A stretch of 53,102 nt of DNA, taken from Erysipelotrichaceae bacterium (GTDB taxonomy: Bacteria > Bacillota_I > Bacilli_A > Erysipelotrichales > Erysipelotrichaceae). Below, in pieces: positions 22,940 to 39,197 of this stretch. The stretch spans positions 1 to 53,102 of the forward strand of contig JAUNQE010000002.1 in NCBI GenBank assembly GCA_030536365.1. Direction: 5' to 3'. The first letter of the stretch is position 1; each line of letters opens with the position of its first letter. Position numbers and translations under genes: made by a program. The notes under the pieces were generated by a model that saw only the letters and a program-made list of their open reading frames with translations, searched no databases and was not told the origin of the DNA.

Positions 22940-24355
22940 TTAGTATTGAACCCCGTTAAACATCAATTGTTTCGCATCTGAAATAATATAAATATGTTTT
23001 TTGGCTCGTGTCATAGCTACATAAAAATCTCTCACATCCATTTTATCTCTTGCATCAATTATTACGCAATCAAATTCAAGTCCTTTTGTTAATACTGTTC
23101 TTGATGATAATCTTGGGAATTCAAATTTCTTTTCAAAAAAATATCTCTGACTACTCAAAACCTCAACAGCCTCGCGAAGAGATATTTTCTCTTCAACCAT
23201 ATGTGCATACGTTTTGCCTATTCGATAAAACAACTCTCTCCGATATATTTTAAATTCTCCATTTCTTCCAAACCAGCGAAGCGCTTCAAGAACATGCTCT
23301 GGTGAATCATTATTGCATATTTTCTCTATAATGTTGCCCAATTCTTTATGCTTACTTATCCTACCAAAATCTGATTTTCCTTTGTTCAAATTGTTAATAT
23401 AGGATCCCAACTCAGCCTGAATTCCATTTATCATTTTTTTCATCATTTCAAGAAACACAAGCGCTTTCTTTTCTTTCTCGTTGGATTCAATTTCTGCTAT
23501 TATTTCTTCCGCTTCAGCCAAATCTTTCGTTTCATCACATTGGAAAAATCCACCATTATGTTGCGAAAAAGATTTTTGTTTGTTTGGAATCGTAGACAGA
23601 TAAACCAAGCTATTGTAGTCTTTTATTCTATAAGCGTATTGCCCATTATTCCATTGAGTTGAATTTATAATAGTCATACATCCGGGAACATCAGCAATGT
23701 TTATTGTTACTGGTTTCCCATCAAGCGCAACAATTATCTTTTTTCTTAGATTATCCAATAATTTACCTAGTTCCTTGTTTGTCTTCTCCCAGCGCCAAGG
23801 GATAGTAAGCGGTGTCATCACCTTAAAAGGGAACAAATTCCAATTGACAATCTTATCTCCCTTAACCCAGTAGAATATTCCCTGTAACGGATCTCCAAAA
23901 ATCCTTATCGGCATCAGTTTTTCTAACATCATAAATATTTCATGCTGAGATTCGGTACAATCTTGATATTCATCGACAAATACTCCTGTATATGTCTGTT
24001 TCAAAACTGATTTAGCCCAATGATTAGTAAAAACTCTAGCCGTACCATTATAAATATCTTTATAATTTATCTCGCTTATTTTTTCAGGTATCTGAAGCCC
24101 TGCGGTTGAAGGATATGCTTTGCACCATTTCAAACAAAATGCTGCAATTGTATCTATTTCGTATTTTTCAGAACAAATCTTTTTTCTTTTTATTCTTTCT
24201 CTTAGCGCGGCCACACCAGCTCTAGTGTGCGTTAAGATAAGTTGCTTCCCTTCACATGAATGAACAGCGTCAGCAATCTCTTCTGTTTTTCCATAGCCTG
24301 CTGGAGCTATTATTCCAACTATTGGCTCATTTAGATAATCCCAATTCTTCTCCAT
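22940..24355 (-). CDS. UvrD/Rep-type superfamily 1 helicase, Gabija GajB-like
   Basis: 471 residues. Helicase motifs in order: I (Walker A) APAGYGKTEE near residue 17, Ia LTHTRAGVAAL near 40, II VFVDEYQDCTES near 125, III RIFGDPLQGIF near 150, IV-like IPWRWEKTN near 183, and V/VI TKGLEFDCVIIDA with YVAMTRAKKHIYII near 430-460. The size and place next to an OLD nuclease match the helicase of two-gene Gabija-type anti-phage systems (GajB is about 490 residues). Its start lies within the 3' end of the nuclease gene (29-base overlap), so they are translated together. Defence is inferred, not shown. Confidence 0.82.
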   Translation of the reverse strand: MEKNWDYLNEPIVGIIAPAGYGKTEEIADAVHSCEGKQLILTHTRAGVAALRERIKRKKICSEKYEIDTIAAFCLKWCKAYPSTAGLQIPEKISEINYKDIYNGTARVFTNHWAKSVLKQTYTGVFVDEYQDCTESQHEIFMMLEKLMPIRIFGDPLQGIFYWVKGDKIVNWNLFPFKVMTPLTIPWRWEKTNKELGKLLDNLRKKIIVALDGKPVTINIADVPGCMTIINSTQWNNGQYAYRIKDYNSLVYLSTIPNKQKSFSQHNGGFFQCDETKDLAEAEEIIAEIESNEKEKKALVFLEMMKKMINGIQAELGSYINNLNKGKSDFGRISKHKELGNIIEKICNNDSPEHVLEALRWFGRNGEFKIYRRELFYRIGKTYAHMVEEKISLREAVEVLSSQRYFFEKKFEFPRLSSRTVLTKGLEFDCVIIDARDKMDVRDFYVAMTRAKKHIYIISDAKQLMFNGVQY

Positions 24356-26009
24356 AATTTATCCAACTAACGATTGAATTAACTGTTTTTACAGCTGCAG
24401 AATCTGGCGAAATACCAGATATTTTTTCAAAAAACATTTTTCCGAGTTCTTCTCCCCCAGCAACACGTTTAAAGAACTCCTTATTACTACAAATTTTTGC
24501 TATTTCTAACAGATTTGCATTCTCTCCGAGTATATACTTCTCACGCGCAAACCCTTGTTTTATTATTTCGTCCCATGTTGCATCTTTCTTTTCGGATTCC
24601 CACTGAAGTAATTTGCCTAATGTTTCAACCGAAAAAAGAGGGAGCAGCGCAGTTTCGATGCATTGTTCTTCTTCCCAAGAAAAAACCGAAACTCCCTTGG
24701 ATATTAATGAATTCTTTTTGTTCTCATCTTCAGGACGATCATTATCTATCAATACAGCAACGTCGAAACCAAGATCATGAAATCTTTCAGCAACAGCTAG
24801 TGCTTCTGCGCTTCCTTTTCCATCCGCATACGATACACATCTGCTTGCCATATAAAACTTTTCATTTTCTTGCAGTTTTTCATCTAAAGCTCGAATGAAT
24901 CCAACCTCAGTAATTCCTTCACAGACAAGGATTCTCGGAGTTAAAAAGGCATCTGGAATTCTACGCAACATTCCCTGCATTTTTGAATTAAGCATTGCAT
25001 TTTCATTTGCAATAATTCGAAATGTCGTAACTCCGTCTTCCGAATTGACTAGTATCAACTGTGAAATATCGAGTTCCGCGAGTACAACAGTGGAATGCGT
25101 AGTAAATAGCACTTGACCTCCATTATTTACTTCCTTTTTCAGTCTATGAATCAAACTTTTCTGTCTATAAGGTTCCAATCCTATTTCTATTTCATCTATA
25201 AGCAAAATAGATGCCCTGTCATTATCTCCTATTTGTAGTCCTAAATTAATTAGTTTTTTGCTTCCGTATCCTCGCTGATTAAATGGTTTGCTACCTTCAA
25301 ACAATTCAATGGTCGACAATACGTTTTTTGTTTTGAGAGAAACCTTATTGTTCAACTCACCATCTATTGAAACTCCATATCCGTCAGCAACAGCTGCTAT
25401 TATAGGAGCTATAGCATCAAGATCGCTGTAATCTCCTAACTTGCGGGATTCTGCTTCAATTATAGAAAGATTCTTTTTTATTGTTTCTCTGGGATCCACG
25501 TACTTTGATAAGGCAGATCCTTGACCCCAATTCAGATTTTGCGAAAAATCTATCCCAATCATCCCCGGAGACACCATTTGTCTATCAGCCGTAGAAAACG
25601 CTTTGTCATCCTGCCGTTTGCAAACAATGCTCCACTGAGGTTCAAACGAATCATTAATAATAAGACGCGCTGTCAAAAAACAGTTTGTCTCAGTAGGTTC
25701 ATCTGCTTCTGCGTTCCAGCTACCGCGAAGATACAACCCATACTTTTGTTCCTTCAAAAAACTATCAGGGAATTCATCAAAGGATACCTCTATGCAAATC
25801 TGCTCATCTGTATTGCAATCATAAAAATCGCTTGAAGAAACTGACAAGTTCCAACTGGGCCATAATGCATAATGGATTGCCCTAAGAATCGTAGATTTTG
25901 TTGAATCACCCGGACCTATGAGGCAAACAAGCCTTTGCTCATCCGGGAAAGTCAAATCCGCTTGTTTAATCCCTCTAAAGTTTTTTATGCTAACATGCTT
26001 TAATCTCAA
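24327..26009 (-). CDS. OLD-family ATPase/TOPRIM nuclease, Gabija GajA-like
   Basis: 560 residues. An SMC/RecF-like ATPase opens the protein (LKHVSIKNFRGIKQADL). Its P-loop is GPGDSTKST (residues 32-40), with Thr where the Walker A consensus has Gly. The signature-like GYGSKKL is near 248, Walker B ILLIDEIEIGLEP near 270 and the switch His in TTHST near 305. The TOPRIM nuclease follows: ILVCEGITE (Glu364) and LIDNDRP (Asp422, Asp424), the metal-binding residues. Class 2 OLD proteins pair with a UvrD helicase, as here, and GajA of Gabija is such a protein. The start is TTG with GGGGGA upstream. Other OLD/helicase defence types are possible. Confidence 0.83.
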   Translation of the reverse strand: MRLKHVSIKNFRGIKQADLTFPDEQRLVCLIGPGDSTKSTILRAIHYALWPSWNLSVSSSDFYDCNTDEQICIEVSFDEFPDSFLKEQKYGLYLRGSWNAEADEPTETNCFLTARLIINDSFEPQWSIVCKRQDDKAFSTADRQMVSPGMIGIDFSQNLNWGQGSALSKYVDPRETIKKNLSIIEAESRKLGDYSDLDAIAPIIAAVADGYGVSIDGELNNKVSLKTKNVLSTIELFEGSKPFNQRGYGSKKLINLGLQIGDNDRASILLIDEIEIGLEPYRQKSLIHRLKKEVNNGGQVLFTTHSTVVLAELDISQLILVNSEDGVTTFRIIANENAMLNSKMQGMLRRIPDAFLTPRILVCEGITEVGFIRALDEKLQENEKFYMASRCVSYADGKGSAEALAVAERFHDLGFDVAVLIDNDRPEDENKKNSLISKGVSVFSWEEEQCIETALLPLFSVETLGKLLQWESEKKDATWDEIIKQGFAREKYILGENANLLEIAKICSNKEFFKRVAGGEELGKMFFEKISGISPDSAAVKTVNSIVSWINYGEELGLSK

Positions 26010-27594: not shown

Positions 27595-28932
27595 TCATAG
27601 GTCTTCGATTAAAAATGGCAACATGTATATTGGATATAATTTCAGCATTTCACTATTGCCTATATCTTTTTGTGATAACAATATTTCCTTCGAAACATGC
27701 TTAGAATATTTTTTCTTAAATTCTATAATTGATTCATGCTTACCGATTCCGGATGACTTAACTTCAATCGAAACTATCTTTGTTTTCGAAGCAAGCAAAA
27801 AGTCAACCTCATAGTAGTGGGAACTGTTTTCTTTCTCCCATGTGTGATAATAAAGGTCTATATCCGATCCGGCAATTATCTGAGCAACTACATTTTCGTA
27901 TAAATATCCCAAATCTGCAGGAAGTGAATCGCTCAACAATTTCGTATAAATATTTTCATCCGTCTTTCCTGATGATCTGAAAATCATGGTAGTAAATAAC
28001 CCTGTATCAGCCAAATAAAGTTTGAATGTATCATCATCTCTCGTTTGAGATAACGCAATGCTCGGATTAAGGACATTATGGCATGATAATACCGTCTTTG
28101 AATCCAGCAAATCATGTAAACGCTCTAAATCTTTATCGATCTTTTTTTTGCCTGTAGCTGCCGAAATAACATAGCTTCTTTTATCCGTTGCTAACTGTGT
28201 CGGAACAGAATCATACATTCTTCCAATCAGTCCAGTATCATCGATCTTGAAGAAATCGTCTTTGTACAAATCTATGATTTCTCTCTTTACTTCATCGATT
28301 TCTGTAAAATTCCTGCCTTCCACATAAGCTTCTACAGCCTGAGGCATTCCACCTACCGCCATATAAATTCTGAAATCCCGCATCAGCTTTCTGTTTAAGG
28401 AATTTCCAACCGGCTTCCCAAGCTTATATAAATCCCGCAATACGCCATAGGTATCATTTCCGATGGCCCACATAAATTCTTCATAGTCCATCGGATATAT
28501 CTGTATTTTCATCTCCTCAGATGGAAGCACTATATCCTTGACATTCTTTTTTATACTGATCAGAGAACCGGTCTCAATATAGTCATATCTTCCGTCCGCA
28601 ACCAGGTACTTTATAGCCTGGCGCACTTTAGGCATAAGCTGGATCTCGTCAAATATAATAACGGATTCTCTTTTATACAACGTTATCCCAGTTGCAGTTT
28701 GCAGTCTAAGAAAAAAAATATCCAAATTTGCTATGTCATCGAACACATCAAGAACATCCTGCGTTATGTTAGCAAAATCCACTTTTATATATGACCTATA
28801 CTCTTGCTTTGCAAATTCTTCGGCAATTGTCGATTTTCCAACACGCCTGGCCCCTTCCAGAAGCACAGAATACTTTGGTGCCTTTTTTTCTTTCCAATAT
28901 TTTAGCTTTTCTAAAGCTTTTCTCTTAAACAT
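27595..28932 (-). CDS. AAA-family ATPase with DUF4143 domain
   Basis: 445 residues. Walker A GARRVGKST is near residue 27 and Walker B VIIFDEIQLMPK near 92, followed by YIETGSLISI and IYPMDYEEFMWA, all typical of the AAA_14 group. The C-terminal DUF4143 region ends in a nuclease-like core, YEVDFLLASKTKIVSIEVKSS (Asp, Glu, Lys pattern of the PD-(D/E)XK fold). These proteins are common accessory genes in gut Firmicutes; their role is unknown. RBS GAGGAG. An array of four 10-bp repeats lies upstream (28958-29063). Confidence 0.85.
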   Translation of the reverse strand: MFKRKALEKLKYWKEKKAPKYSVLLEGARRVGKSTIAEEFAKQEYRSYIKVDFANITQDVLDVFDDIANLDIFFLRLQTATGITLYKRESVIIFDEIQLMPKVRQAIKYLVADGRYDYIETGSLISIKKNVKDIVLPSEEMKIQIYPMDYEEFMWAIGNDTYGVLRDLYKLGKPVGNSLNRKLMRDFRIYMAVGGMPQAVEAYVEGRNFTEIDEVKREIIDLYKDDFFKIDDTGLIGRMYDSVPTQLATDKRSYVISAATGKKKIDKDLERLHDLLDSKTVLSCHNVLNPSIALSQTRDDDTFKLYLADTGLFTTMIFRSSGKTDENIYTKLLSDSLPADLGYLYENVVAQIIAGSDIDLYYHTWEKENSSHYYEVDFLLASKTKIVSIEVKSSGIGKHESIIEFKKKYSKHVSKEILLSQKDIGNSEMLKLYPIYMLPFLIEDL

Positions 28933-31011: not shown

Positions 31012-31713
31012 ATGATCTATCTCGCCGGATTTCTCGCTTATTTTATTAAAGGACTGTGCGGATTTGCGAATACGCTGGTTTTCCAGTCCGTTCTACGGAT
31101 CTCCGACGCTTCTCTGAACATGAATATCACGCCGCTCGAGTGTCTGCTGAGCTGGCCGTTCAATCTGCTGATGACCTGGCACAAGCGTGCCTATCTGAAA
31201 CTCAAACGGGTCGCCGGTCTGATCGTTCTGGTCCTCGGCGGCGCTGTGATCGGCGTCTTTCTTTTGAAAAACCTGCATGGCGCCTGGCTGAACCGTCTGT
31301 TCGGTATCACGGTGATCGCGATCGCTCTGGATCTGCTGTTTCTGAAAAAGAAGAGCGATCCGGATTCTCCGCTTCTGAAGATCATCGGATTCCTTTCCGG
31401 CATTCTGTGCGGACTTTTCGGTATCGGCGCTTTCCTGGCCGCCTACATGAACCGGGTCAGCGACTCTTCGGATGAATTCAAGGCGAATCTCAGCGCTGTA
31501 TTCATCTTTGAGAACAGCTTCCGCCTGCTGCTTTATGCCCTGAACGGCATGCTGAACATGGCGATCCTCAAACAGGTCCTCTTCTGTCTGCCGGTATCCC
31601 TGTTAGGGCTTTATGCCGGGATCAAGTGCAGCCAGTTCGTTTCCGAAAAGACCGCGAAGATCTTCGTTCTGATCGCTTTGTTTGTCAGCGGTCTTTATCT
31701 GTTGTTTGTTTAG
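31012..31713 (+). CDS. TSUP (TauE/SafE) family membrane protein
   Basis: 233 residues with about seven membrane helices. The opening (YLAGFLAYFIKGLCGFANTLVF) and the second repeat (SGILCGLFGIGAFLAAYMNRV) carry the paired Gly-rich helix motif of TauE/SafE anion exporters (sulfite, sulfoacetate and similar). Substrate unknown. The ATG follows a terminator T-run directly, with no ribosome binding site, so either expression depends on readthrough or the true start is unusual. The next genes are the trp operon, separated by its own promoter. Confidence 0.8.
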   Translation: MIYLAGFLAYFIKGLCGFANTLVFQSVLRISDASLNMNITPLECLLSWPFNLLMTWHKRAYLKLKRVAGLIVLVLGGAVIGVFLLKNLHGAWLNRLFGITVIAIALDLLFLKKKSDPDSPLLKIIGFLSGILCGLFGIGAFLAAYMNRVSDSSDEFKANLSAVFIFENSFRLLLYALNGMLNMAILKQVLFCLPVSLLGLYAGIKCSQFVSEKTAKIFVLIALFVSGLYLLFV

Positions 31714-31727
31714 CGAATTTCTTATAA

Positions 31728-31757
31728 TTGACGGTGCGTTGGCCTGTTGTATACAAT
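31728..31757 (+). promoter_or_regulatory. Promoter of the trp operon
   Basis: TTGACG at 31728-31733 and TACAAT at 31752-31757, spacer 18 bp, just upstream of the T-box leader. Confidence 0.7.
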
Positions 31758-31764
31758 AAAATGG

Positions 31765-32025
31765 TAAACCGTTGAGGCGGAGATAAAGGCAGATATGATC
31801 TCCCAGAGAGCCCGGGCAGGTGAGAGCCGGGCAGAAGCACAGTCTGTCAAATGGACCGCTGAGGGCAGAGTCAAAGGCTGTTGCTGAGTATTCTCTGACG
31901 CACAGGGCTGCGTTAGTGACCGGGGGTATGATCGTACCCTGCTGAGTGTGCACTTAGGTGTGAATTAGGGTGGCACCGCGGATATTGTATTCGTCCCTGA
32001 TGGAGTTTTTCCGTCAGGGTTTTTA
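31765..32025 (+). promoter_or_regulatory. Tryptophan T-box riboswitch leader
   Basis: The T-box sequence AGGGTGGCACCGCGG (31967-31981) is perfect; its UGGC part pairs with the CCA end of uncharged tRNA. A terminator follows (CCCTGATGG, 31995-32003, with CCGTCAGGG, 32011-32019, then TTTTT). Upstream is a long stem I; the likely specifier codon is TGG (31852-31854) in AAATGGACC, which would read tRNA-Trp, in agreement with the trp genes downstream. Low charged tRNA-Trp should open the operon. Confidence 0.92.
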
Positions 32026-32040
32026 TTTGGAGGAAAAAGA

Positions 32041-32826
32041 ATGGATATCCTGCAGCAACTGGCTGATCATGCGCGGGAGCGTGTCCGGCTGAAGAAAGAA
32101 AAGATCCCGCTGTCAATGCTGAAAGAGCGGGCGGAACAGATGGAAAAGGGGACGTTCCCTTTGGAAAAGGCGTTATCGGAAGAAGGTATGAGCTTTATCT
32201 GCGAATGCAAGAAAGCCTCTCCCAGCAAAGGGATCATCGCCGAAGACTTCCCTTACCTGCAGATCGCCCGCGAATACGAGGAAGCAGGCGCCTCAGCCAT
32301 CTCCTGTCTGACCGAACCGAAGTGGTTTCTCGGCAGCGACAGCTATCTCAAAGAGATCGCGAAGAAGGTGAGGATCCCTGTCCTGCGTAAAGACTTTACA
32401 GTCGATCCCTATATGATCTACGAGGCGAAGATCCTGGGCGCGTCTGCGGTCCTGCTGATCGTCGCGATCCTCAGCGAGGAGGAGTTGCGCAGCTATCTGC
32501 AGATCTCTGATGAGCTCGGTCTCTCGGCTGTTGTGGAAGCGCATGACCGGAAAGAGATAGAGACCGCATTAAACGCGGGAGCGCGGATCATCGGCGTCAA
32601 CAACCGGGATCTCCGTGATTTCTCGGTCGATATCCATAACAGTATCGCTCTGCGTCAGTATATCCCGGAGGATGTCCTGATGATCGCCGAAAGCGGCATA
32701 AGGACCCGGGAAGATATCATCGAACTGGAAAAAGGAAAGATCAACGGTGTTCTGATCGGCGAAAGCCTGATGCGTTCACCGGATAAAAAGACAGTGCTTG
32801 CAACATTGAGAGGAGTCAGAAAATGA
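32041..32826 (+). CDS. trpC: Indole-3-glycerol phosphate synthase
   Basis: Converts CdRP to indole-3-glycerol phosphate. 261 residues, a TIM barrel with the family motifs [13 protein letters not shown] (catalytic Lys), [35 protein letters not shown] and AESGI. First gene after the T-box; there is no trpE or trpG before it, though these usually lead a trp operon. RBS TTGGAGG. It overlaps trpD by 4 bases. Confidence 0.97.
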
Positions 32827-33848
32827 TCAAGGAAGCAATCGTTAAGATCGTCAGCAAAGGAGATCTCAGATATGACGAAGCCTATACCGTCATGAACGAG
32901 ATCATGTCCGGCCAGACGACCGCCACCCAGAATGCCGCCTTCCTGGCCGCATTATCCACCAAGAGCACCAAAGCCGAAACGATCGATGAGATCTCCGGCT
33001 GTGCCGCCGCCATGCGCGAGCACGCCACGCCGGTAAACCATCCGGGAATGGAAGTTCTCGAGATCGTCGGTACCGGAGGGGACGGTTCGCATTCCTTCAA
33101 TATTTCCACGACTTCTGCCTTTATGATCGGCGCGGCAGGCATCAAAGTTGCCAAACACGGCAACCGCGCCGCTTCCTCGCTTTCCGGAACAGCGGATGTG
33201 CAGGAGGCTCTCGGCGTCAATATTCAGCAGGATCCCGAAAAAGCGCTGCGCATGCTGGAAGAGGCGGGAATGTGCTTCTTCTTTGCCCAGATGTATCACT
33301 CCGCTATGAAATATGTCGGCGCGATCCGCCGCGAACTCGGCTTCCGCACCGTCTTCAATATCCTCGGTCCCTTGACCAATCCGGCCCGCCCGGAATACTT
33401 CGTCCTCGGTGTCTATGATGAATATCTGGCTGAACCGATCACCAAAGTTCTGGACAAGCTGGGCGTGAAAAGAGCCTTCGTTGTCTATGGCCAGGATAAG
33501 CTCGATGAGATCTCTGCCGTTGGACCGACGACTGTCTGCGAGCTGCGCAACGGCTATTACCGCACCTTCAGTGTTTCTCCCGAAGACTTCGGTCTGTAAA
33601 GAGGAGCGAAAGAGGAGCTGAAGGGAGGAACGCCGCAGGAAAACGCGGAGATCACCAGAGCGATCCTTTCCGGTACACTCACCGGCACCAAACGCAACGC
33701 GGTGCTCCTGAATGCCGGCGCCGGTATCTATATCGGCGGCAAGGCAGAGAGTTTCGCGGAGGGCGTTCGTAAGGCGGAAGAGCTGATCGACAGCGGTGCG
33801 GCTCTGCGTTTCATGGAACGCTATATCGAAAGCTCATGCGCACAGTAA
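32823..33848 (+). pseudogene. trpD: Anthranilate phosphoribosyltransferase interrupted by an in-frame stop
   Basis: Would join PRPP to anthranilate. The first 258 codons carry normal motifs ([41 protein letters not shown]). Then TAA at 33597-33599 follows FGL. The same frame continues without any other stop for 82 codons ([18 protein letters not shown]... GAGIYIGG... SCAQ), which is the missing C-terminal domain, ending at 33848 inside the trpF start. One substitution (a Lys codon AAA to TAA) explains this. No start codon with a good RBS follows the stop, so the protein is cut by about a quarter unless the stop is read through. Confidence 0.9.
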
Positions 33849-34447
33849 AGATCTGCGGTCTGCGCCGCAAGGAAGATATCGAGGCTGTCAATGTTCTGCT
33901 GCCGGAATATGCCGGCATGATCCTCTCATCCGGTTTCCGCCGCTCGCTCAGCAGAGAGACCGCGGCTGAGCTGAAGGCAGCCCTGGACAAAAGAATAAAG
34001 ATGTGCGGTGTCTTCGTGAATGAGGAAACAGCGTTTATCCGGAGCTTCCTCGAAGAAGGCATCATCGACATCGTCCAGCTTCACGGGAACGAAAAGAACA
34101 GTCAGATCGATGAGCTCCATTCCCTGTATCCCGGACTGACCGTCTTTAAGGCTTTCCGGGTCAGAAACAAAGAGGATCTTAAAGAAGCAGCTGAAAGCCA
34201 TGCCGATCATGTCCTGCTCGACAGCGGGACCGGGACCGGCAGGACCTTCGACTGGGAACTGATCCGTGATTTTCCGAGACCCTACATTCTGGCCGGAGGA
34301 CTGGACCCGGAGAATGTCGGCGAAGCTTTAAGAATACTTACACCCATTGGTCTCGATGTCAGTTCCGGTGTGGAAACCGACGGCATGAAAGACCCGCTCA
34401 AAATGAAAGCCTTTGTGGAGGCGGTACGCGGAAAGGAGACTGTTTGA
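33836..34447 (+). CDS. trpF: Phosphoribosylanthranilate isomerase
   Basis: 203 residues, TIM barrel. Motifs [12 protein letters not shown] (catalytic Cys at the usual place), [29 protein letters not shown] (catalytic Asp) and [19 protein letters not shown] are all present. It isomerises PRA to CdRP, the substrate of TrpC. Its start overlaps the end of the trpD reading frame by 13 bases, and its stop overlaps trpB by one base. Confidence 0.96.
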
Positions 34448-35631
34448 TGTCAAAAGGAAGATTCGGCGCGCATGGCGGCCAGTACATTCCGGAAACACTG
34501 ATGAATGCCGTGAATGAACTGGAAGCCGCGTACGAAAAATGCAAGAACGATCCGGCGTTTCAGCAGGAGCTGAAAACACTCTTTGATGAATATGCCGGAC
34601 GCCCCAGCCGGCTTTACTACGCCAAAAGAATGACGGAGGACCTCGGCGGAGCGAAGATCTACCTGAAACGGGAAGATCTGAATCATACCGGTGCCCACAA
34701 GATCAACAACGTTCTGGGCCAGGCGCTGCTCGCGAAGAAAATGGGAAAAACAAGACTGATCGCCGAGACCGGAGCCGGTCAGCACGGTGTTGCCACCGCT
34801 ACGGCCGCGGCTCTGCTCGGCATGGAGTGTGTCGTTTTCATGGGCCGCGAGGATATCGAGCGCCAGGCTCTCAATGTCTATAAAATGAGGCTTCTCGGAG
34901 CGGATGTCGTTTCCGTCAATACCGGGACCGGGACTTTGAAGGACGCTGTTTCCCAGGCGATGCGGGAATGGACTTCGCGCATGGAAGATACCCATTACTG
35001 TCTCGGTTCGGTCATGGGACCGCATCCCTTCCCGACGATCGTCCGTGATTTTCAGGCAGTGATCTCTGCCGAGATCAGGGAACAGATCCTGGAAAAAGAG
35101 GGTCGTCTGCCGGATGCGGTCATTGCCTGTGTCGGCGGCGGTTCCAACGCGATCGGCTCCTTCTATCATTTCATTGAAGACCCGGAGGTGAAGCTGATCG
35201 GATGTGAAGCGGCCGGAAGAGGGATCGATACCTTTGAGACAGCCGCGACGATCAATACCGGCAGGATCGGGATCTTTCACGGAATGAAGTCCTATTTCTG
35301 TCAGGATGAATTCGGACAGATCGCACCGGTCTATTCCATCTCCGCCGGTCTTGATTATCCCGGGATCGGCCCTGAACATGCCTGGCTGCACGACAGCGGG
35401 CGGGCGGAATATGTGGCGGTCACCGATGAGGAAGCCGTCGAAGCTTTTGAATATCTCTCGAAGAAGGAGGGGATCATCCCCGCTATCGAATCCGCGCATG
35501 CCCTGGCATACGCAATGAAATACGCGCCCACGCTTCCCAAAGACAGGATCCTTGTCGTCACGCTTTCCGGGCGCGGAGATAAAGACTGTGTATCGGTAGC
35601 GCGCTACCGCGGAGAGGAGCTGAGCGAATGA
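34447..35631 (+). CDS. trpB: Tryptophan synthase beta chain
   Basis: 394 residues, PLP enzyme joining indole and serine. It starts [19 protein letters not shown]; the PLP lysine lies in [11 protein letters not shown] (near residue 83), with [14 protein letters not shown] and GGGSNAIG (phosphate loop, near 229) and the GRGDKD ending. It forms the TrpA2B2 complex with the next gene. The start is taken as the ATG at 34447 in TGATG, overlapping the trpF stop. Confidence 0.98.
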
Positions 35632-36404
35632 GCCGGATCAGAAATGCCTTCAAAGACAGAAAATCTTTCATAGCGTTTATCACCTGCGGCGATCCGGATC
35701 TAGAGACCACCGAAGAAGCAGTAAAGGAAATGGTCAGACAGGGCGCGGATCTGATTGAACTTGGTATACCTTTCTCGGATCCGACAGCGGAAGGACCGGT
35801 CATCATGGCGGCGGATGAAAGAGCGCTGCAGGCCGGGACTACGACCGACGCAGTCTTTGAGCTTACCGCCAGACTCAGAAAGACAGTCGAAGTACCGATG
35901 GTCTATATGACGTATGCCAACGTCGTTTTCTCCTACGGGACCGAACGCTTCATCGCGAAAGCCGCGGAAGCCGGGATCGACGGACTGATCCTGCCGGATG
36001 TGCCGTTTGAGGAACGGGAAGAATTCGCGGAAGTGTGCCGGAAATACGGTCTCTTGCTGATCTCGATGATCGCGCCGACATCCAGAGACCGGATCGCGTT
36101 GATCGCAAAGGAAGCGGAAGGATTTATCTACATCGTTTCCTCACTGGGAGTGACCGGTGTCCGCTCGGCGATCACGACCGATATCGCGTCGCTCGTCACA
36201 ACGGTCCGTGAGAATACGGATGTTCCCTGTGCAGTCGGTTTCGGGATCTCAACGCCGGAACAGGCAAAAGAGATGGCAGCTCTCAGCGACGGAGCGATCG
36301 TCGGTTCAGCCATCGTCCGCATCGTTGCCGAAAAAGGGAAGGAAGCCGCTATCCCGGCGGGCGAGTATGTCTGTGAAATGGCGGAAGCCGTCCATTCTCT
36401 TTGA
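35628..36404 (+). CDS. trpA: Tryptophan synthase alpha chain
   Basis: 258 residues. It cleaves indole-3-glycerol phosphate and passes indole to TrpB. The catalytic Glu is in [11 protein letters not shown], and Asp/Gly residues follow in SSLGVTGVR and [11 protein letters not shown]. The normally conserved ADGP reads AEGP, as in several gut Firmicutes. Last gene of the operon; a terminator follows. Confidence 0.97.
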
Positions 36405-36426
36405 CAGAAAACGCAGAAACGAAAGA

Positions 36427-36455
36427 AAGGACCATTATGTGAAATGGTCCTTTTG
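36427..36455. terminator. Terminator between trpA and the tRNA array
   Basis: AAGGACCATT and its complement with a 7-base loop, T-rich on both sides (TTTTGG on plus, CTTTCTTT on minus). It can end trpA and the oppositely directed tRNA transcript. Confidence 0.85.
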
Positions 36456-36461
36456 GTTTTA

Positions 36462-36537
36462 TGGTGATGCCAGCCGGAATCGAACCGCGCATTGCGGAGT
36501 TGAAAGCCCCGTTTCCTGACCGTTAGAAGATGGCACC
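36462..36537 (-). tRNA. tRNA-Glu(TTC)
   Basis: 76 nt with encoded CCA. Acceptor stem 7 bp with one G-U; anticodon loop CTTTCAA; T-loop TTCGATT is normal. The T-stem strands CGCGG and CCGGC fail to pair at two positions (49-65, 50-64), so only three T-stem pairs form. Confidence 0.8.
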
Positions 36538-36617
36538 GCTAACGCTGAGCACAGGATGTTGCACACGGCGATCTAGTGAACCACCGCATTTGACTGCTCA
36601 GCTAAAACAGCATGATA
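36538..36617 (-). other. Structured gap within the tRNA array, no recognisable tRNA
   Basis: An 8-bp inverted repeat GCTGAGCA/TGCTCAGC encloses 44 bases holding a hairpin (GGTGG-9-TCGCC) flanked by TGC/GCA. It resembles a tRNA that has lost an arm, or a separate structured RNA. The enclosed part is too short for a normal cloverleaf. Confidence 0.35.
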
Positions 36618-36694
36618 TGGAGCATCAGGCAGGATTTGAACCTGCGCAAACAGGCGTTGCAGACCTGTTCCTTCAGCCACTTGGATACTGATGC
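36618..36694 (-). tRNA. tRNA-Cys(GCA)
   Basis: 77 nt with encoded CCA. Acceptor GCATCAG/CTGATGC perfect, anticodon loop CTGCAAC, T-arm GCAGG-TTCAAAT-CCTGC perfect. D-loop keeps GG. A fully canonical member of the array. Confidence 0.93.
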
Positions 36695-36697
36695 ATC

Positions 36698-36773
36698 TGG
36701 CAGTCCCGACGGGTGCTGCCCCCGCTGTCTCCGGCGTGACAAGCCGGCGCATCTGCTGCTATGCTACAGGACT
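36698..36773 (-). tRNA. tRNA-Asp(GTC)-like, non-canonical D- and T-loops
   Basis: 76 nt, all stems pair (acceptor AGTCCTG/CGGGACT, D-stem GCAT/ATGC, anticodon stem CCGGC/GCCGG, T-stem GCGGG/CCCGT) and CCA is encoded. The anticodon loop TTGTCAC reads Asp codons. The T-loop is GGCAGCA instead of TTCRANY and the D-loop AGCAGCAG lacks GG, so the usual elbow contacts cannot form. Confidence 0.75.
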
Positions 36774-36777
36774 GTAT

Positions 36778-36851
36778 TGGTCGGAACGGCAGGAGTCGGA
36801 CCTGCGAAACACGATTATAAGTCGTGCGTTTTGCCGTTAAACTACGCTCCA
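36778..36851 (-). tRNA. tRNA-Ile(TAT)-like
   Basis: 74 nt with encoded CCA. Anticodon stem CACGA/TCGTG with loop CTTATAA gives anticodon TAT, reading AUA directly. T-stem GCAGG/CCTGC perfect; T-loop TCCGACT has C at position 55 in place of T. The acceptor begins with a U-G pair. Confidence 0.75.
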
Positions 36852-36853
36852 GA

Positions 36854-36937
36854 TGGTGGACAGGGATGGATTTGAACCACCGCGCAGTTAAGACCTGAGT
36901 TACGGTCAGGCACATTCGACCTCTCTGTCACCTGTCC
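36854..36937 (-). tRNA. tRNA-Tyr(GTA)-like with C33
   Basis: 84 nt, class II size, with encoded CCA. Acceptor GGACAGG/CCTGTCC and anticodon stem CCTGA/TCAGG perfect; T-loop TTCAAAT normal. The anticodon loop CCGTAAC has C33 where nearly all elongator tRNAs have U33. The 12-nt variable arm does not form a clear stem. Confidence 0.8.
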
Positions 36938-36942
36938 ATTTA

Positions 36943-37035
36943 TGGCGCCCGTCAGAGGATTCGAACCCCTGCGCCGGTCTCCCGGCCTTCCGGTTTTCAG
37001 GACCGGTCTCTTCAGCCGGACTTGAGTAGACGGGC
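36943..37035 (-). tRNA. tRNA-Ser(TGA)-like with C33
   Basis: 93 nt, class II with a proper variable arm (GCCGG-4-CCGGC), encoded CCA and a normal T-loop TTCGAAT. Acceptor GCCCGTC/GACGGGC perfect. The anticodon loop CCTGAAA again has C33 instead of U33. Confidence 0.82.
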
Positions 37036-37038
37036 GAT

Positions 37039-37112
37039 TGGCTGCTCCGGAATGATTTGAACATTCATCTGCCGAGTCAGAGTCGGCGATCCTGCCGTTG
37101 GACGACGAAGCA
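37039..37112 (-). tRNA. tRNA-Gln(CTG)
   Basis: 74 nt with encoded CCA. Anticodon stem GCCGA/TCGGC with loop CTCTGAC; T-arm GAATG-TTCAAAT-CATTC perfect; D-loop has GG. Canonical. Confidence 0.92.
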
Positions 37113-37117
37113 ATTTC

Positions 37118-37193
37118 TGGTGGATCTTCTCCGTTACGCTCGGAGCCCTTCTGTTCTTCAAACAGACGCTTCCACTAGGTTAGCTTAAGATCC
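37118..37193 (-). tRNA. tRNA-Phe(GAA)-like, non-canonical T-loop
   Basis: 76 nt with encoded CCA. Acceptor GGATCTT/AAGATCC, anticodon stem TCTGT/ACAGA and T-stem CTCCG/CGGAG are perfect. Loop TTGAAGA carries anticodon GAA. The T-loop is AGCGTAA rather than TTCRANY; it nearly matches the T-loop of the adjacent tRNA-His-like gene. Confidence 0.78.
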
Positions 37194-37196
37194 GTT

Positions 37197-37271
37197 TGGG
37201 TGGTCGTAACGGTAACGCTCCGTTTCTCCGGCGGCCACAACGCCGGGTGCTGCTTTACCACTAACGATCAC
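37197..37271 (-). tRNA. tRNA-His(GTG)-like, non-canonical D- and T-loops
   Basis: 75 nt with encoded CCA and the His-specific extra G-1 opposite C73. Anticodon stem CGGCG/CGCCG, loop TTGTGGC. T-stem AACGG/CCGTT perfect but the T-loop is AGCGTTA. The D-loop GTAAAGCAG lacks GG, and the acceptor has an A3-C70 mismatch. Confidence 0.75.
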
Positions 37272-37276
37272 ATAGA

Positions 37277-37352
37277 TGGCTCAGGAACCCGGACTTGAAC
37301 AGGGATCTGCCGGGTCAAAGCCGGCTGTCTTTTCCAGTTAGACGATTCCCGA
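37277..37352 (-). tRNA. tRNA-Gln(TTG)
   Basis: 76 nt with encoded CCA. Anticodon stem GCCGG/CCGGC, loop CTTTGAC; T-loop TTCAAGT normal. One T-stem mismatch (U-C) and one acceptor G-U pair. Otherwise canonical; first in the direction of transcription. Confidence 0.87.
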
Positions 37353-37373
37353 AGGTAAGCGCCGGAAGGCGCT

Positions 37374-37604
37374 TTATTTTCTGATGACGAGTATATCGCT
37401 GACTGTGACGTTGAACAGATCTGCCAGGATGACAAGATTGTCCACGCTCGGCAGAGCGTCACCTCTCTGCCATTTGAAGATCGACTGCGGGTTGTTGAAT
37501 CCAAGCGCGGTCTGCAGATCTTTCACAGTCATTTTGTTTTTCTTTCTCAGCGCAAGGATGTTTGCACCGGTGTCGATCATATCGATCCTCGGAACTGTAT
37601 TCAT
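37374..37604 (-). CDS. Small XRE-family helix-turn-helix regulator
   Basis: 76 residues, nearly all one Cro/C1-type DNA-binding domain: ILALRKKNKMTVKDLQTALGF, then SIFKWQRGDALPSVDNLVILADLF, then VTVSDIL. RBS GGAGG, 7 bases before the ATG. It lies 21 bases upstream of the tRNA array in the same direction, with only a small hairpin (37358-37375, no T-run on this strand) between them, so it may share a transcript with the tRNAs. Confidence 0.85.
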   Translation of the reverse strand: MNTVPRIDMIDTGANILALRKKNKMTVKDLQTALGFNNPQSIFKWQRGDALPSVDNLVILADLFNVTVSDILVIRK

Positions 37605-37620
37605 TTCCTTTCCTCCATTA

Positions 37621-37660
37621 TAAAACCGCTTGTTTCAGTTGGTGCTGCAGAACAAGCGGT
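37621..37660 (-). terminator. Hairpin between small ORF and XRE gene
   Basis: Perfect 10-bp stem ACCGCTTGTT/AACAAGCGGT with a 16-base loop, followed by TTTTAT on the minus strand. It ends the small gene upstream. Confidence 0.75.
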
Positions 37661-37693
37661 CATAAAGTTATCCGTTGATCGATCTAAAAGAGA

Positions 37694-37804
37694 TCAGAGT
37701 TTCCTTCTGCAGCAGTCATAACAAAAATCATCGTCGATAAAGTCTATTGAACGATGCTGGTGTTCCTCATACTGTGAATAATATCTGTTAAGAACTGCTT
37801 TCAT
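37694..37804 (-). CDS. Small 36-residue protein with C-terminal cysteines
   Basis: Starts MKAVLNRYYSQYEEHQ and ends DDDFCYDCCRRKL. A strong AAGGAGA site lies 8 bases upstream of the ATG and a terminator follows, which together support a real small gene. The Cys-x2-Cys-Cys tail could bind metal. Function unknown; it may be involved with the XRE gene downstream. Confidence 0.5.
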   Translation of the reverse strand: MKAVLNRYYSQYEEHQHRSIDFIDDDFCYDCCRRKL

Positions 37805-37869
37805 TTTCAGATCTCCTTCCACCTGCCATTTTAAAGGAAAAAAGGAAGAAATCAAGTAAACCGCTGGTT

Positions 37870-37905
37870 TATACAAAAAACGCCATCCGCGGCGGACGAC
37901 GTTTT
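37870..37905 (-). terminator. Terminator of the DUF1576 gene
   Basis: On the minus strand AACGTCGTCCG and CGGATGGCGTT pair with two wobbles, followed by TTTTTT, about 30 bases after the stop codon. Confidence 0.75.
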
Positions 37906-37928
37906 ATCTGGTTGTGTGTTGGATCGAT

Positions 37929-39197
37929 CTACTCTTTCGCGAACGGCGTCTTCAGCCGGAAGAGATTCTTATACAGGGTATGCAGCATCAGCATGATATA
38001 GGCGACGAAGCCGGCCGCAAAACCGTTGTTGTAGAGGCACAGGAAACCGTGCAGGAAAGAGATATTGGGCGCCACATTGACATGGATCAGACCGGTGATC
38101 ATACCGAAGATCGGTCCGAAATCGCCGGCGATCGGAGCCATGCAGGCGGAGTTCAAAGTCGTCGTCAGGATGCCTGTGCTTCCCAGATCATACTTGAAGA
38201 TGAAGGAGCCCAGAACGATGCCCAGGATCGACCAGGGCATATTGGCCATATGCATACCGTAAGCCGCAAAACCCGGGATCGTCCAGATACAGGAGATGAC
38301 GGGACCATTGATCTGTCCGCCGACCAGGAAGACATAAGCCGTCGCCATCAGTCCGCAGCCGCCCATGTTGATCAGGGTGACCGGGAAGGAAGCTTTAGAG
38401 AAGAAGTCCGCCGGCGCTTTGCCGGTCTGTTTAAGCAGTTCCTTCAGACCCTTGAAGCTCTTTCCGTTAAGGAAGAAGCCTTCGACGATCATGCTGAGAT
38501 AGATCAGCCCGAAGAAAGTGCCGAGCAGAAGGTTGTTGCCGCCGGTGACCGGAAGCGCGTTCTTGGCATAGGTGAAGCCAAGGAAGCGAAAAAGCGTCGC
38601 GATCAGTGTGCAGCAGATGCCTGCGGCAAAACCCATATTGAACAGGTTGTAGCCTTTATGGATCGAGAAGGCATAGGACAGGATGTCCGCAGCCAGGAAA
38701 CCGAGCAGACAGCCTACCGCGAAAGCAGCCAGCAGACGCAGGAATACCGGTCCCTGGACTTTCAGGAAGATATAGCTTACAAAAGGCGCCATGCAGGTCG
38801 AGAACAGCGATGTAACGACATGATTCTTGAACGGATCCTTCTTCATGCGGGAATAGAGGAAGACACCGCAGATCAGCGGCAGGATATTCAGGACATTCTC
38901 GCCATAGAAGGAATAACCGGCGACGATGAAACTGCTGGCGAAGTGTTTGCCGGCAGCGCCGGTATCGAAGATCTTCAGCAGTGTGACAACGAGCAGGAAG
39001 CACAGACCGGCGTTCACGAAGCCCGGTCCGAGACCGAAGTGAAAGGCATCAAATGCCAGAGCGGAATCGGAGCTGATTATCCCAATTAGGCCTTCTTTCA
39101 ATTGTGTGAGTGAGGGACAGAGACAAACACCGAAGAGGATGAATAGACATGCGTAGACAAACAGGTGCGCAAAAATGAAGCTATCTCCCTTTTTCAT
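37929..39197 (-). CDS. DUF1576 multi-pass membrane protein
   Basis: 422 residues with roughly eleven membrane helices. Motifs such as AFHFGLGPGFVNAGL, ALPVTGGNNLLLG and HGFLCLYNNGFAAGFVA match the DUF1576 family of uncharacterised integral membrane proteins in anaerobic Firmicutes. A transport role is plausible but unproven. An extended -10 (TGCGATAAT) ends exactly 6 bases before the ATG, so this gene may also be leaderless, although AAAGG lies close to the start. Confidence 0.82.
   Translation of the reverse strand: MKKGDSFIFAHLFVYACLFILFGVCLCPSLTQLKEGLIGIISSDSALAFDAFHFGLGPGFVNAGLCFLLVVTLLKIFDTGAAGKHFASSFIVAGYSFYGENVLNILPLICGVFLYSRMKKDPFKNHVVTSLFSTCMAPFVSYIFLKVQGPVFLRLLAAFAVGCLLGFLAADILSYAFSIHKGYNLFNMGFAAGICCTLIATLFRFLGFTYAKNALPVTGGNNLLLGTFFGLIYLSMIVEGFFLNGKSFKGLKELLKQTGKAPADFFSKASFPVTLINMGGCGLMATAYVFLVGGQINGPVISCIWTIPGFAAYGMHMANMPWSILGIVLGSFIFKYDLGSTGILTTTLNSACMAPIAGDFGPIFGMITGLIHVNVAPNISFLHGFLCLYNNGFAAGFVAYIMLMLHTLYKNLFRLKTPFAKE

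Follow-up and report, generated by a model that had tools for sequence, protein, structure and literature searches.

The window, by which we mean the whole 53,102-nucleotide stretch of DNA that was analysed, comes from a gut bacterium, represented by an Erysipelotrichaceae MAG of 1.5 Mb that is 82% complete. Ten tRNA genes occupy positions 36462-37352 of the window's minus strand; a small XRE gene precedes them, trpA lies on their other side, and the region as a whole is flanked by trpA and DUF1576. In minus-strand order, and followed by the hairpin in the gap next to trpA, these features are:

37277..37352, minus strand: tRNA-Gln(UUG), G73
37197..37271, minus strand: tRNA-His(GUG), T-loop AGCGTTA, D-loop without GG, G-1:C73 kept, missed by ARAGORN and Rfam
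37118..37193, minus strand: tRNA-Phe(GAA), T-loop AGCGTAA, A73, missed by ARAGORN and Rfam
37039..37112, minus strand: tRNA-Gln(CUG), G73
36943..37035, minus strand: tRNA-Ser(UGA), C33, G73
36854..36937, minus strand: tRNA-Tyr(GUA), C33, A73
36778..36851, minus strand: tRNA-Ile(UAU), C55, A73
36698..36773, minus strand: tRNA-Asp(GUC), T-loop GGCAGCA, D-loop AGCAGC, G73, Rfam 41.3 bits
36618..36694, minus strand: tRNA-Cys(GCA), U73
36462..36537, minus strand: tRNA-Glu(UUC), T-stem with three of five pairs and two mismatches
36426..36454, no strand assigned: hairpin AAAGGACCATT...AATGGTCCTTTT between the array and trpA, a probable terminator for both sides

The array and its surroundings

A sequence-only reading of this DNA had described ten tRNA-like genes whose loops change while stems stay paired, and every deviation it named is there: the exact T-loops of Asp, Phe and His, the Asp and His D-loops without GG, C33 in Tyr and Ser, C55 in Ile, and the mismatched T-stem of Glu. 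CCA is encoded in all ten genes, and the stems are paired with the exception of the Glu T-stem and one A.C mismatch in His. ARAGORN calls seven of the ten genes and the Rfam tRNA model eight (all except His and Phe), at 41-60 bits, when tRNAs elsewhere in the genome mostly reach 50-75 bits. The lone tRNA-Pro at 42.7 kb is indeed normal (63.9 bits). The discriminators suit the synthetases (His G-1:C73, Cys U73, Asp, Gln and Ser G73, Tyr, Phe and Ile A73), and synthetase identity bases are kept across the nine amino acids of the array.

The normal set expected elsewhere in the genome exists for the array isoacceptors, except Asp: no normal tRNA-Asp was found in this 82%-complete MAG, and congeners have one. 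The Ile-UAU anticodon also has no normal counterpart elsewhere in this genome. The array is an extra set beside the housekeeping set, the Asp exception being seen only in this incomplete MAG.

The congener G003 carries an orthologous array, in which the His, Phe, Tyr, Asp and Cys genes are nearly identical and the Gln, Ser and Glu parts are replaced; array content differs between congeners, which indicates turnover. In the T-loops of His, Phe and Asp the sole change between the two genomes is purine 57, and stem changes are compensated at Phe 31-39 (anticodon stem) and Tyr 7-66 (acceptor stem). Because the stem changes are compensated and the loops recur in G003, the array tRNA genes are not decaying, as the earlier reading had argued. 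Some of them could nevertheless be poor decoders, given C33, C55 and the broken Glu T-stem.

Genome G001, a closer relative than G003, has neither the array nor the trp genes: tauE, the hairpin of 36426..36454 and DUF1576 directly follow one another, which shows the locus to be dispensable. Compared with window positions 31700-37930, the G001 segment (L053:4360-5180) lacks the trp operon and the array as if two inserts flanked the hairpin. The absence from G001, the turnover between congeners and the low Rfam scores might suggest a tRNA array left behind by a phage or mobile element and now decaying, and one related operon does lie on a viral contig. We consider this extremely improbable, for there is no phage gene among the neighbour genes scanned around the array, stem changes are compensated, the loops are conserved with G003 despite the replaced Gln/Ser/Glu part, and the leader, attenuator and operator described below are conserved across families. 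A remnant was rejected because of the conserved architecture and because trp genes and DUF1576 are what adjoins the array. DUF1576 itself is conserved within the genus and in few genomes beyond it, and elsewhere it is unlinked to arrays.

Staphylococcus has non-proteinogenic tRNA-Gly with D- and T-loop deviations and intact stems, which serve the FemXAB cell-wall ligases. On this precedent, array tRNAs with deviating loops and intact stems might be used outside translation, as the sequence-only reading had suggested, for instance in the cell wall; peptide tailoring would be another such use. We give next to no probability to such use. The staphylococcal case concerns one isoacceptor, cell-wall ligases and no regulatory leader, whereas the window array has no tRNA-Gly, keeps the identity bases of nine amino acids, and appears coupled to a codon-reading leader; no Fem-type gene or other tRNA-dependent ligase was found among the nearby genes scanned.

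Three further observations concern the window. An 80-nt extra segment between the Cys and Glu genes (36538-36617, minus strand), absent from G003, folds as a long hairpin (z -2.3) with no cloverleaf. The trpD-like ORF at 32823-33599 (plus strand) covers only positions 4-183 of 253 of Glycos_transf_3, and trpD looks truncated or frameshifted. Finally, a Gabija pair (GajA 6e-134, GajB 2e-104) and the candidate defence ATPase PDC-S01 lie about 10 kb from the array:

22940-26009 and 27595-28932, minus strand: Gabija pair and PDC-S01 candidate

Leader, attenuator and operator

What makes sense of the array is a leader ORF, an attenuator, an operator and an XRE gene, all of which the sequence-only reading had missed. 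The operon is made of an operator palindrome, a 36-codon leader ORF, an intrinsic terminator with a rival antiterminator pairing, an XRE regulator and the tRNA array, in this order. The features ahead of the tRNA genes are:

37857..37871, minus strand: operator palindrome TAAACCAGCGGTTTA, adjoining the predicted promoter, probable XRE binding site
37850-37855 and 37828-37833, minus strand: predicted promoter, TTGATT and TAAAAT
37694..37804, minus strand: leader ORF of 36 codons with a Shine-Dalgarno, upstream of the XRE gene, conceptual translation MKAVLNRYYSQYEEHQHRSIDFIDDDFCYDCCRRKL
37705..37714, minus strand: antiterminator segment TGCTGCAGAA, within the last leader codons
37625..37660, minus strand: attenuator, terminator hairpin ACCGCTTGTT...AACAAGCGGT, then TTTTAT
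37643-37652, minus strand: TTCTGCAGCA, loop side of the terminator hairpin
37374..37604, minus strand: XRE-type HTH regulator of 76 aa (Pfam HTH_3, 4e-9)

In the leader, 24 of the 25 residues at positions 8-32 belong to the set for which the array has tRNAs (Y, S, Q, E, H, I, D, F, C), with a binomial p of 2.7e-9 against average protein composition. The frame is kept in the G003 leader, where the indel is in frame and the substitutions draw on the same amino acids; this leader retains Ser and Gln although the G003 array lacks normal genes for either. The leader peptide of L067/L089 is dominated by Q, H, F, E, I and D, and its array carries exactly Q, H, F, E, I and D; the leader of genome G002 holds all eight amino-acid types of its own array.

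A short leader ORF with a Shine-Dalgarno ahead of an intrinsic terminator is the arrangement predicted for an attenuator, and the same position and design are found at related loci. The terminator hairpin has a folding energy of -16 kcal/mol (z -2.4), and TGCTGCAGAA is a perfect 10-bp complement of 37643-37652, with none of 200 shuffles as good. Locus by locus, the last leader codons can base-pair with the terminator's 5' arm and loop (window, TGCTGCAGAA:TTCTGCAGCA; L109, TTTCTGCATCAG:CTGATGCAGAAA; L122, CTCATATAAGACAA:TTGTCTTGTATGAG). Taken singly, 17 of 34 loci beat 95% of shuffles and the other half do not. The complementarity is locus-specific: own pairs of leader and terminator score 22.2 versus 17.3 for swapped loci (z=8.1, 0/100000).

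The operator pattern TAWACCASCGGTWTA occurs exactly twice in the window's genome, both times before one of its two arrays, and once in G003, at the array, with no occurrence in G001 and G002; within the window it is found once, when none is expected. Palindromes resembling TATACYACRGGTATA lie ahead of nearly all related leaders.

We think it likely that the array is the output of a reserve-tRNA operon under ribosome-mediated transcription attenuation. The architecture, the composition match, the complementarity and the operator specificity support this computationally. The leader would act as a checklist whose translation needs the tRNAs for Tyr, Ser, Gln, Glu, His, Ile, Asp, Phe and Cys, the array's own set. 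With ample charged tRNAs, the ribosome would reach the leader end and cover TGCTGCAGAA, and transcription would terminate short of the XRE gene and the array. Scarcity of any one of the listed tRNAs would stall the ribosome upstream, TGCTGCAGAA would pair with TTCTGCAGCA of the terminator, and the XRE protein and spare tRNAs would be made. With the spares, translation of the leader would resume and the operon would close once more; such a closed feedback loop would account for the amino-acid set that leader and array have in common. At the palindromic operator, the XRE protein probably provides a second lock. As a trigger, tRNA cleavage by anticodon nucleases would be likeliest, because the operons of relatives hold RtcB or combine an RNA ligase with kinase/HD or phosphatase enzymes; this fits the link to tRNA-cutting agents made in the sequence-only reading.

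Related operons in other genomes

BLAST of 273 family members revealed further arrays, including a second one in the window's own genome (contig C34), and a genome scan with the XRE alignment gave 80 loci in Erysipelotrichaceae, Lachnospiraceae, Oscillospiraceae and others, 35 of which have a tRNA array directly after the XRE gene. A rule-based search identified a leader and an attenuator in nearly all array loci examined; no leader was found in the upstream regions of L104 and L165. For 32 of the 35 loci tested, leaders were chosen by rule (Shine-Dalgarno, position before the attenuator) and not by composition, and those of the window, L066 and L030 were read by eye.

Over the 35 loci, the fraction of leader residues within their own array's set is 0.375, versus 0.298 when permuted (z=7.5, 0/200000). 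The permutation gives z=6.8 with 28 dereplicated loci, z=6.2 within clades only (core residues 7.2), and 3.8 and 4.9 for Erysipelotrichaceae alone and Clostridia alone. Conversely, 99.5% of array amino-acid types are present in their own leader, versus 90.9% permuted. The codon boxes of Ser, Leu, Arg and Ile match array anticodons only weakly (84 of 144, 74 expected, z=1.7, mostly Ile), and we therefore make the leader-array claim for amino acids and not for individual isoacceptors. In the out-of-sample locus L172 the array was read first (E, Q, C, E, W, Q, F, Y), and the leader, MKNMTSAIFYMSEWQAIFQCEEYSFSEARPFQDKQ..., then held all of these, Trp included.

Leader cores are overall rich in Tyr, Cys, Gln, Ser, Phe, His and Glu, and poor in Thr, Val, Ala, Pro and Gly, a bias that perhaps reflects the target range of the tRNases met. 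The general richness in Y, C, Q and S and poverty in T, V, A, P and G could also mean that the leader is a general sensor of translation stress (antibiotics, or any stall) and that its match to the array is a by-product of shared ancestry and general bias. The induction of the Anabaena trn operon by translation antibiotics (PMC10272220) would fit such a sensor. Yet the permutation keeps both biases and still yields z=7.5, or 6.2 within clades, and array-specific rare residues such as Trp track the array in L092 and L172, which disfavours this explanation and makes it very unlikely. The leader-array permutation, the comparison of own with swapped complementarity, and an operator found only at arrays also refute, in the main, the remnant considered above.

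The leader-XRE-array system may travel on mobile elements. Locus L172 (IMGVR_UViG_3300022753_000315) lies on a contig classified as viral and comprises a complete leader-XRE-array unit, near a second XRE gene. XRE relatives were found on viral contigs at 10 loci, and one of the seven scanned for tRNAs had an array. The clostridial terminator had no exact match in viral contigs.

RNA repair genes recur in many of these operons; the window locus itself lacks an RNA ligase gene. RtcB lies between the leader and the XRE gene in many clostridial loci, the second array of the window's genome is followed by genes for a protein of the RNA_ligase family and for a P-loop/HD protein similar to end-healing enzymes, L144 has an RNA_ligase flanked by two metallophosphoesterases, and L140 a vWA/DUF2828 protein ahead of RtcB. 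Rfam found no tRNAs in 16 array-less XRE loci, and the three of these that were opened (L099, L102 and L112) keep the leader, attenuator, RtcB and XRE gene, which suggests that the leader can also serve repair alone. In L106 the RtcB frame upstream of the XRE gene looks internally deleted, with only start and end left; the ligase can apparently decay while leader and array stay.

The second operon of the window's genome (G000:C34, L030/L086:4407-7334) consists of a leader, an attenuator, an XRE gene, tRNAs for Arg, Leu, Leu, Pro and Leu and one with CAU, and then the RNA ligase and P-loop/HD protein. Decay or an assembly error has shifted the XRE frame of this second operon by one base in this MAG, and its Leu(AAG) has no long variable arm. 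In G002, a related array (L023:9313-10998) is broken by an RNaseH_like (YkuK-type) ORF and ends with a different XRE ORF, an arrangement in which tRNAs and mRNAs would alternate in one apparent transcript.

Known systems and the tRNA elbow

Leader-peptide attenuation is textbook for amino-acid synthesis, where the trp, his and ilv leaders are ribosome-mediated attenuators of biosynthesis operons. The operon studied here resembles these in its short ORF, competing antiterminator and terminator, and control codons within the leader. It differs in that tRNA genes and RNA repair would be controlled, and many tRNAs read together instead of one or a few amino acids. We know of no case of leader-peptide attenuation controlling tRNA genes, nor, to our knowledge, has a leader peptide been reported that names a whole series of tRNAs and varies together with the genes under its control. 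No description of a leader-attenuated tRNA array was found in the open-access literature searched.

In function, the nearest known system is the trn operon of Anabaena sp. PCC 7120, a silent operon that TrcR represses along with rtcB and that responds to translation antibiotics by induction (PMC10272220). Both systems have an extra tRNA array beside the housekeeping set, a repressor (a probable one here), common control of array and rtcB (here in many loci), and, as proposed here, a response to translational stress (PMC10272220). In contrast, TrcR belongs to the RHH family of repressors (PMC10272220), whereas the regulator here is an XRE HTH_3 protein. The searched text of the paper mentions no leader or attenuation (PMC10272220); in the systems described here, a single operon can hold both array and ligase, and the make-up of the leader tracks that of the array.

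The rsr-yrlBA-rtcBA operon of Salmonella, an RtcB RNA repair operon that senses damaged tRNA through the CARF domain of RtcR, shares with many of these operons the RtcB ligase and a presumed response to tRNA damage, and itself includes a tRNA-like RNA (PMC7790460). The vWA/DUF2828 neighbour of RtcB in L140 is itself loosely Ro-like, which recalls the rsr operon. Unlike the arrays, the Salmonella operon encodes no tRNA set or leader, and the searched text of the paper leaves attenuation unmentioned (PMC7790460). Where Salmonella has the RtcR/CARF activator, an XRE gene and a leader take the regulatory place here.

If the proposed attenuation is right, it would constitute a closed-feedback sensor of tRNA supply across gut and rumen Firmicutes and account for chromosomal tRNA arrays without clear function. 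Leader composition would moreover predict which tRNAs are under attack in each lineage, making anticodon nuclease targets testable from sequence.

The array tRNAs also bear on the G18-Psi55 elbow contact, which is thought near-universal. T-loops and D-loops were parsed in 162 array tRNAs, of which 125 have the canonical TTCRA T-loop, 123 of these with GG in the D-loop. G55 ([AG]GCR[TG] or TGCRA) occurs in 16 of the 162, by inspection with AG[CT] in the D-loop, and the G55/A18 swap occurs in Erysipelotrichaceae arrays, among their His, Phe, Asp, Ile, Gln and Trp tRNAs. Both members of the G18-Psi55 contact change at once and G19-C56 is retained, which makes this a coordinated swap of G55 with A18 and a natural experiment on the contact. 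Candidate reasons are independence from T54/Psi55 modification and escape from elbow-reading nucleases.

Altered elbows, C33 and odd T-stems might instead keep array tRNAs off the ribosome. The same attenuator would then sense tRNA loss, and the array would supply sacrificial bait for anticodon nucleases, presented by the anticodon arms, a role that the sequence-only reading had raised. C33 and the Glu T-stem do break positions relevant to EF-Tu or the ribosome while the anticodon arms are perfect, and the tRNA-like domain of YrlA has been proposed as a competitive inhibitor of the nuclease (PMC7790460). We nevertheless consider bait unlikely: most array tRNAs have canonical T-loops, the identity bases of each synthetase are kept, and bait needs no tie between leader codons and array amino acids, unless the nuclease baited is specific for that tRNA. 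The leader-array match argues that the tRNAs are meant to decode.

More tentatively, since it is a broader claim and one we would not yet favour over its negation, the system could be a widespread Firmicute tRNA homeostat, in which the leader co-evolves with the array as its checklist and any listed loss calls up the replacement set, with repair ligases in many species. Some of its tRNAs would have an elbow with A18.G55, A54.U58 and G19-C56 kept, independent of T54/Psi55 modification and possibly resistant to whichever nucleases had cut the normal set.

Another unusual class of array tRNAs was observed in L092 (about 1918-2008), L106, L131 and L165. These Ser-like tRNAs, three of which have a UGA loop, combine a long tRNA-Sec-like D-stem with the T-loop ATCGACA, and resemble allo-tRNAs.
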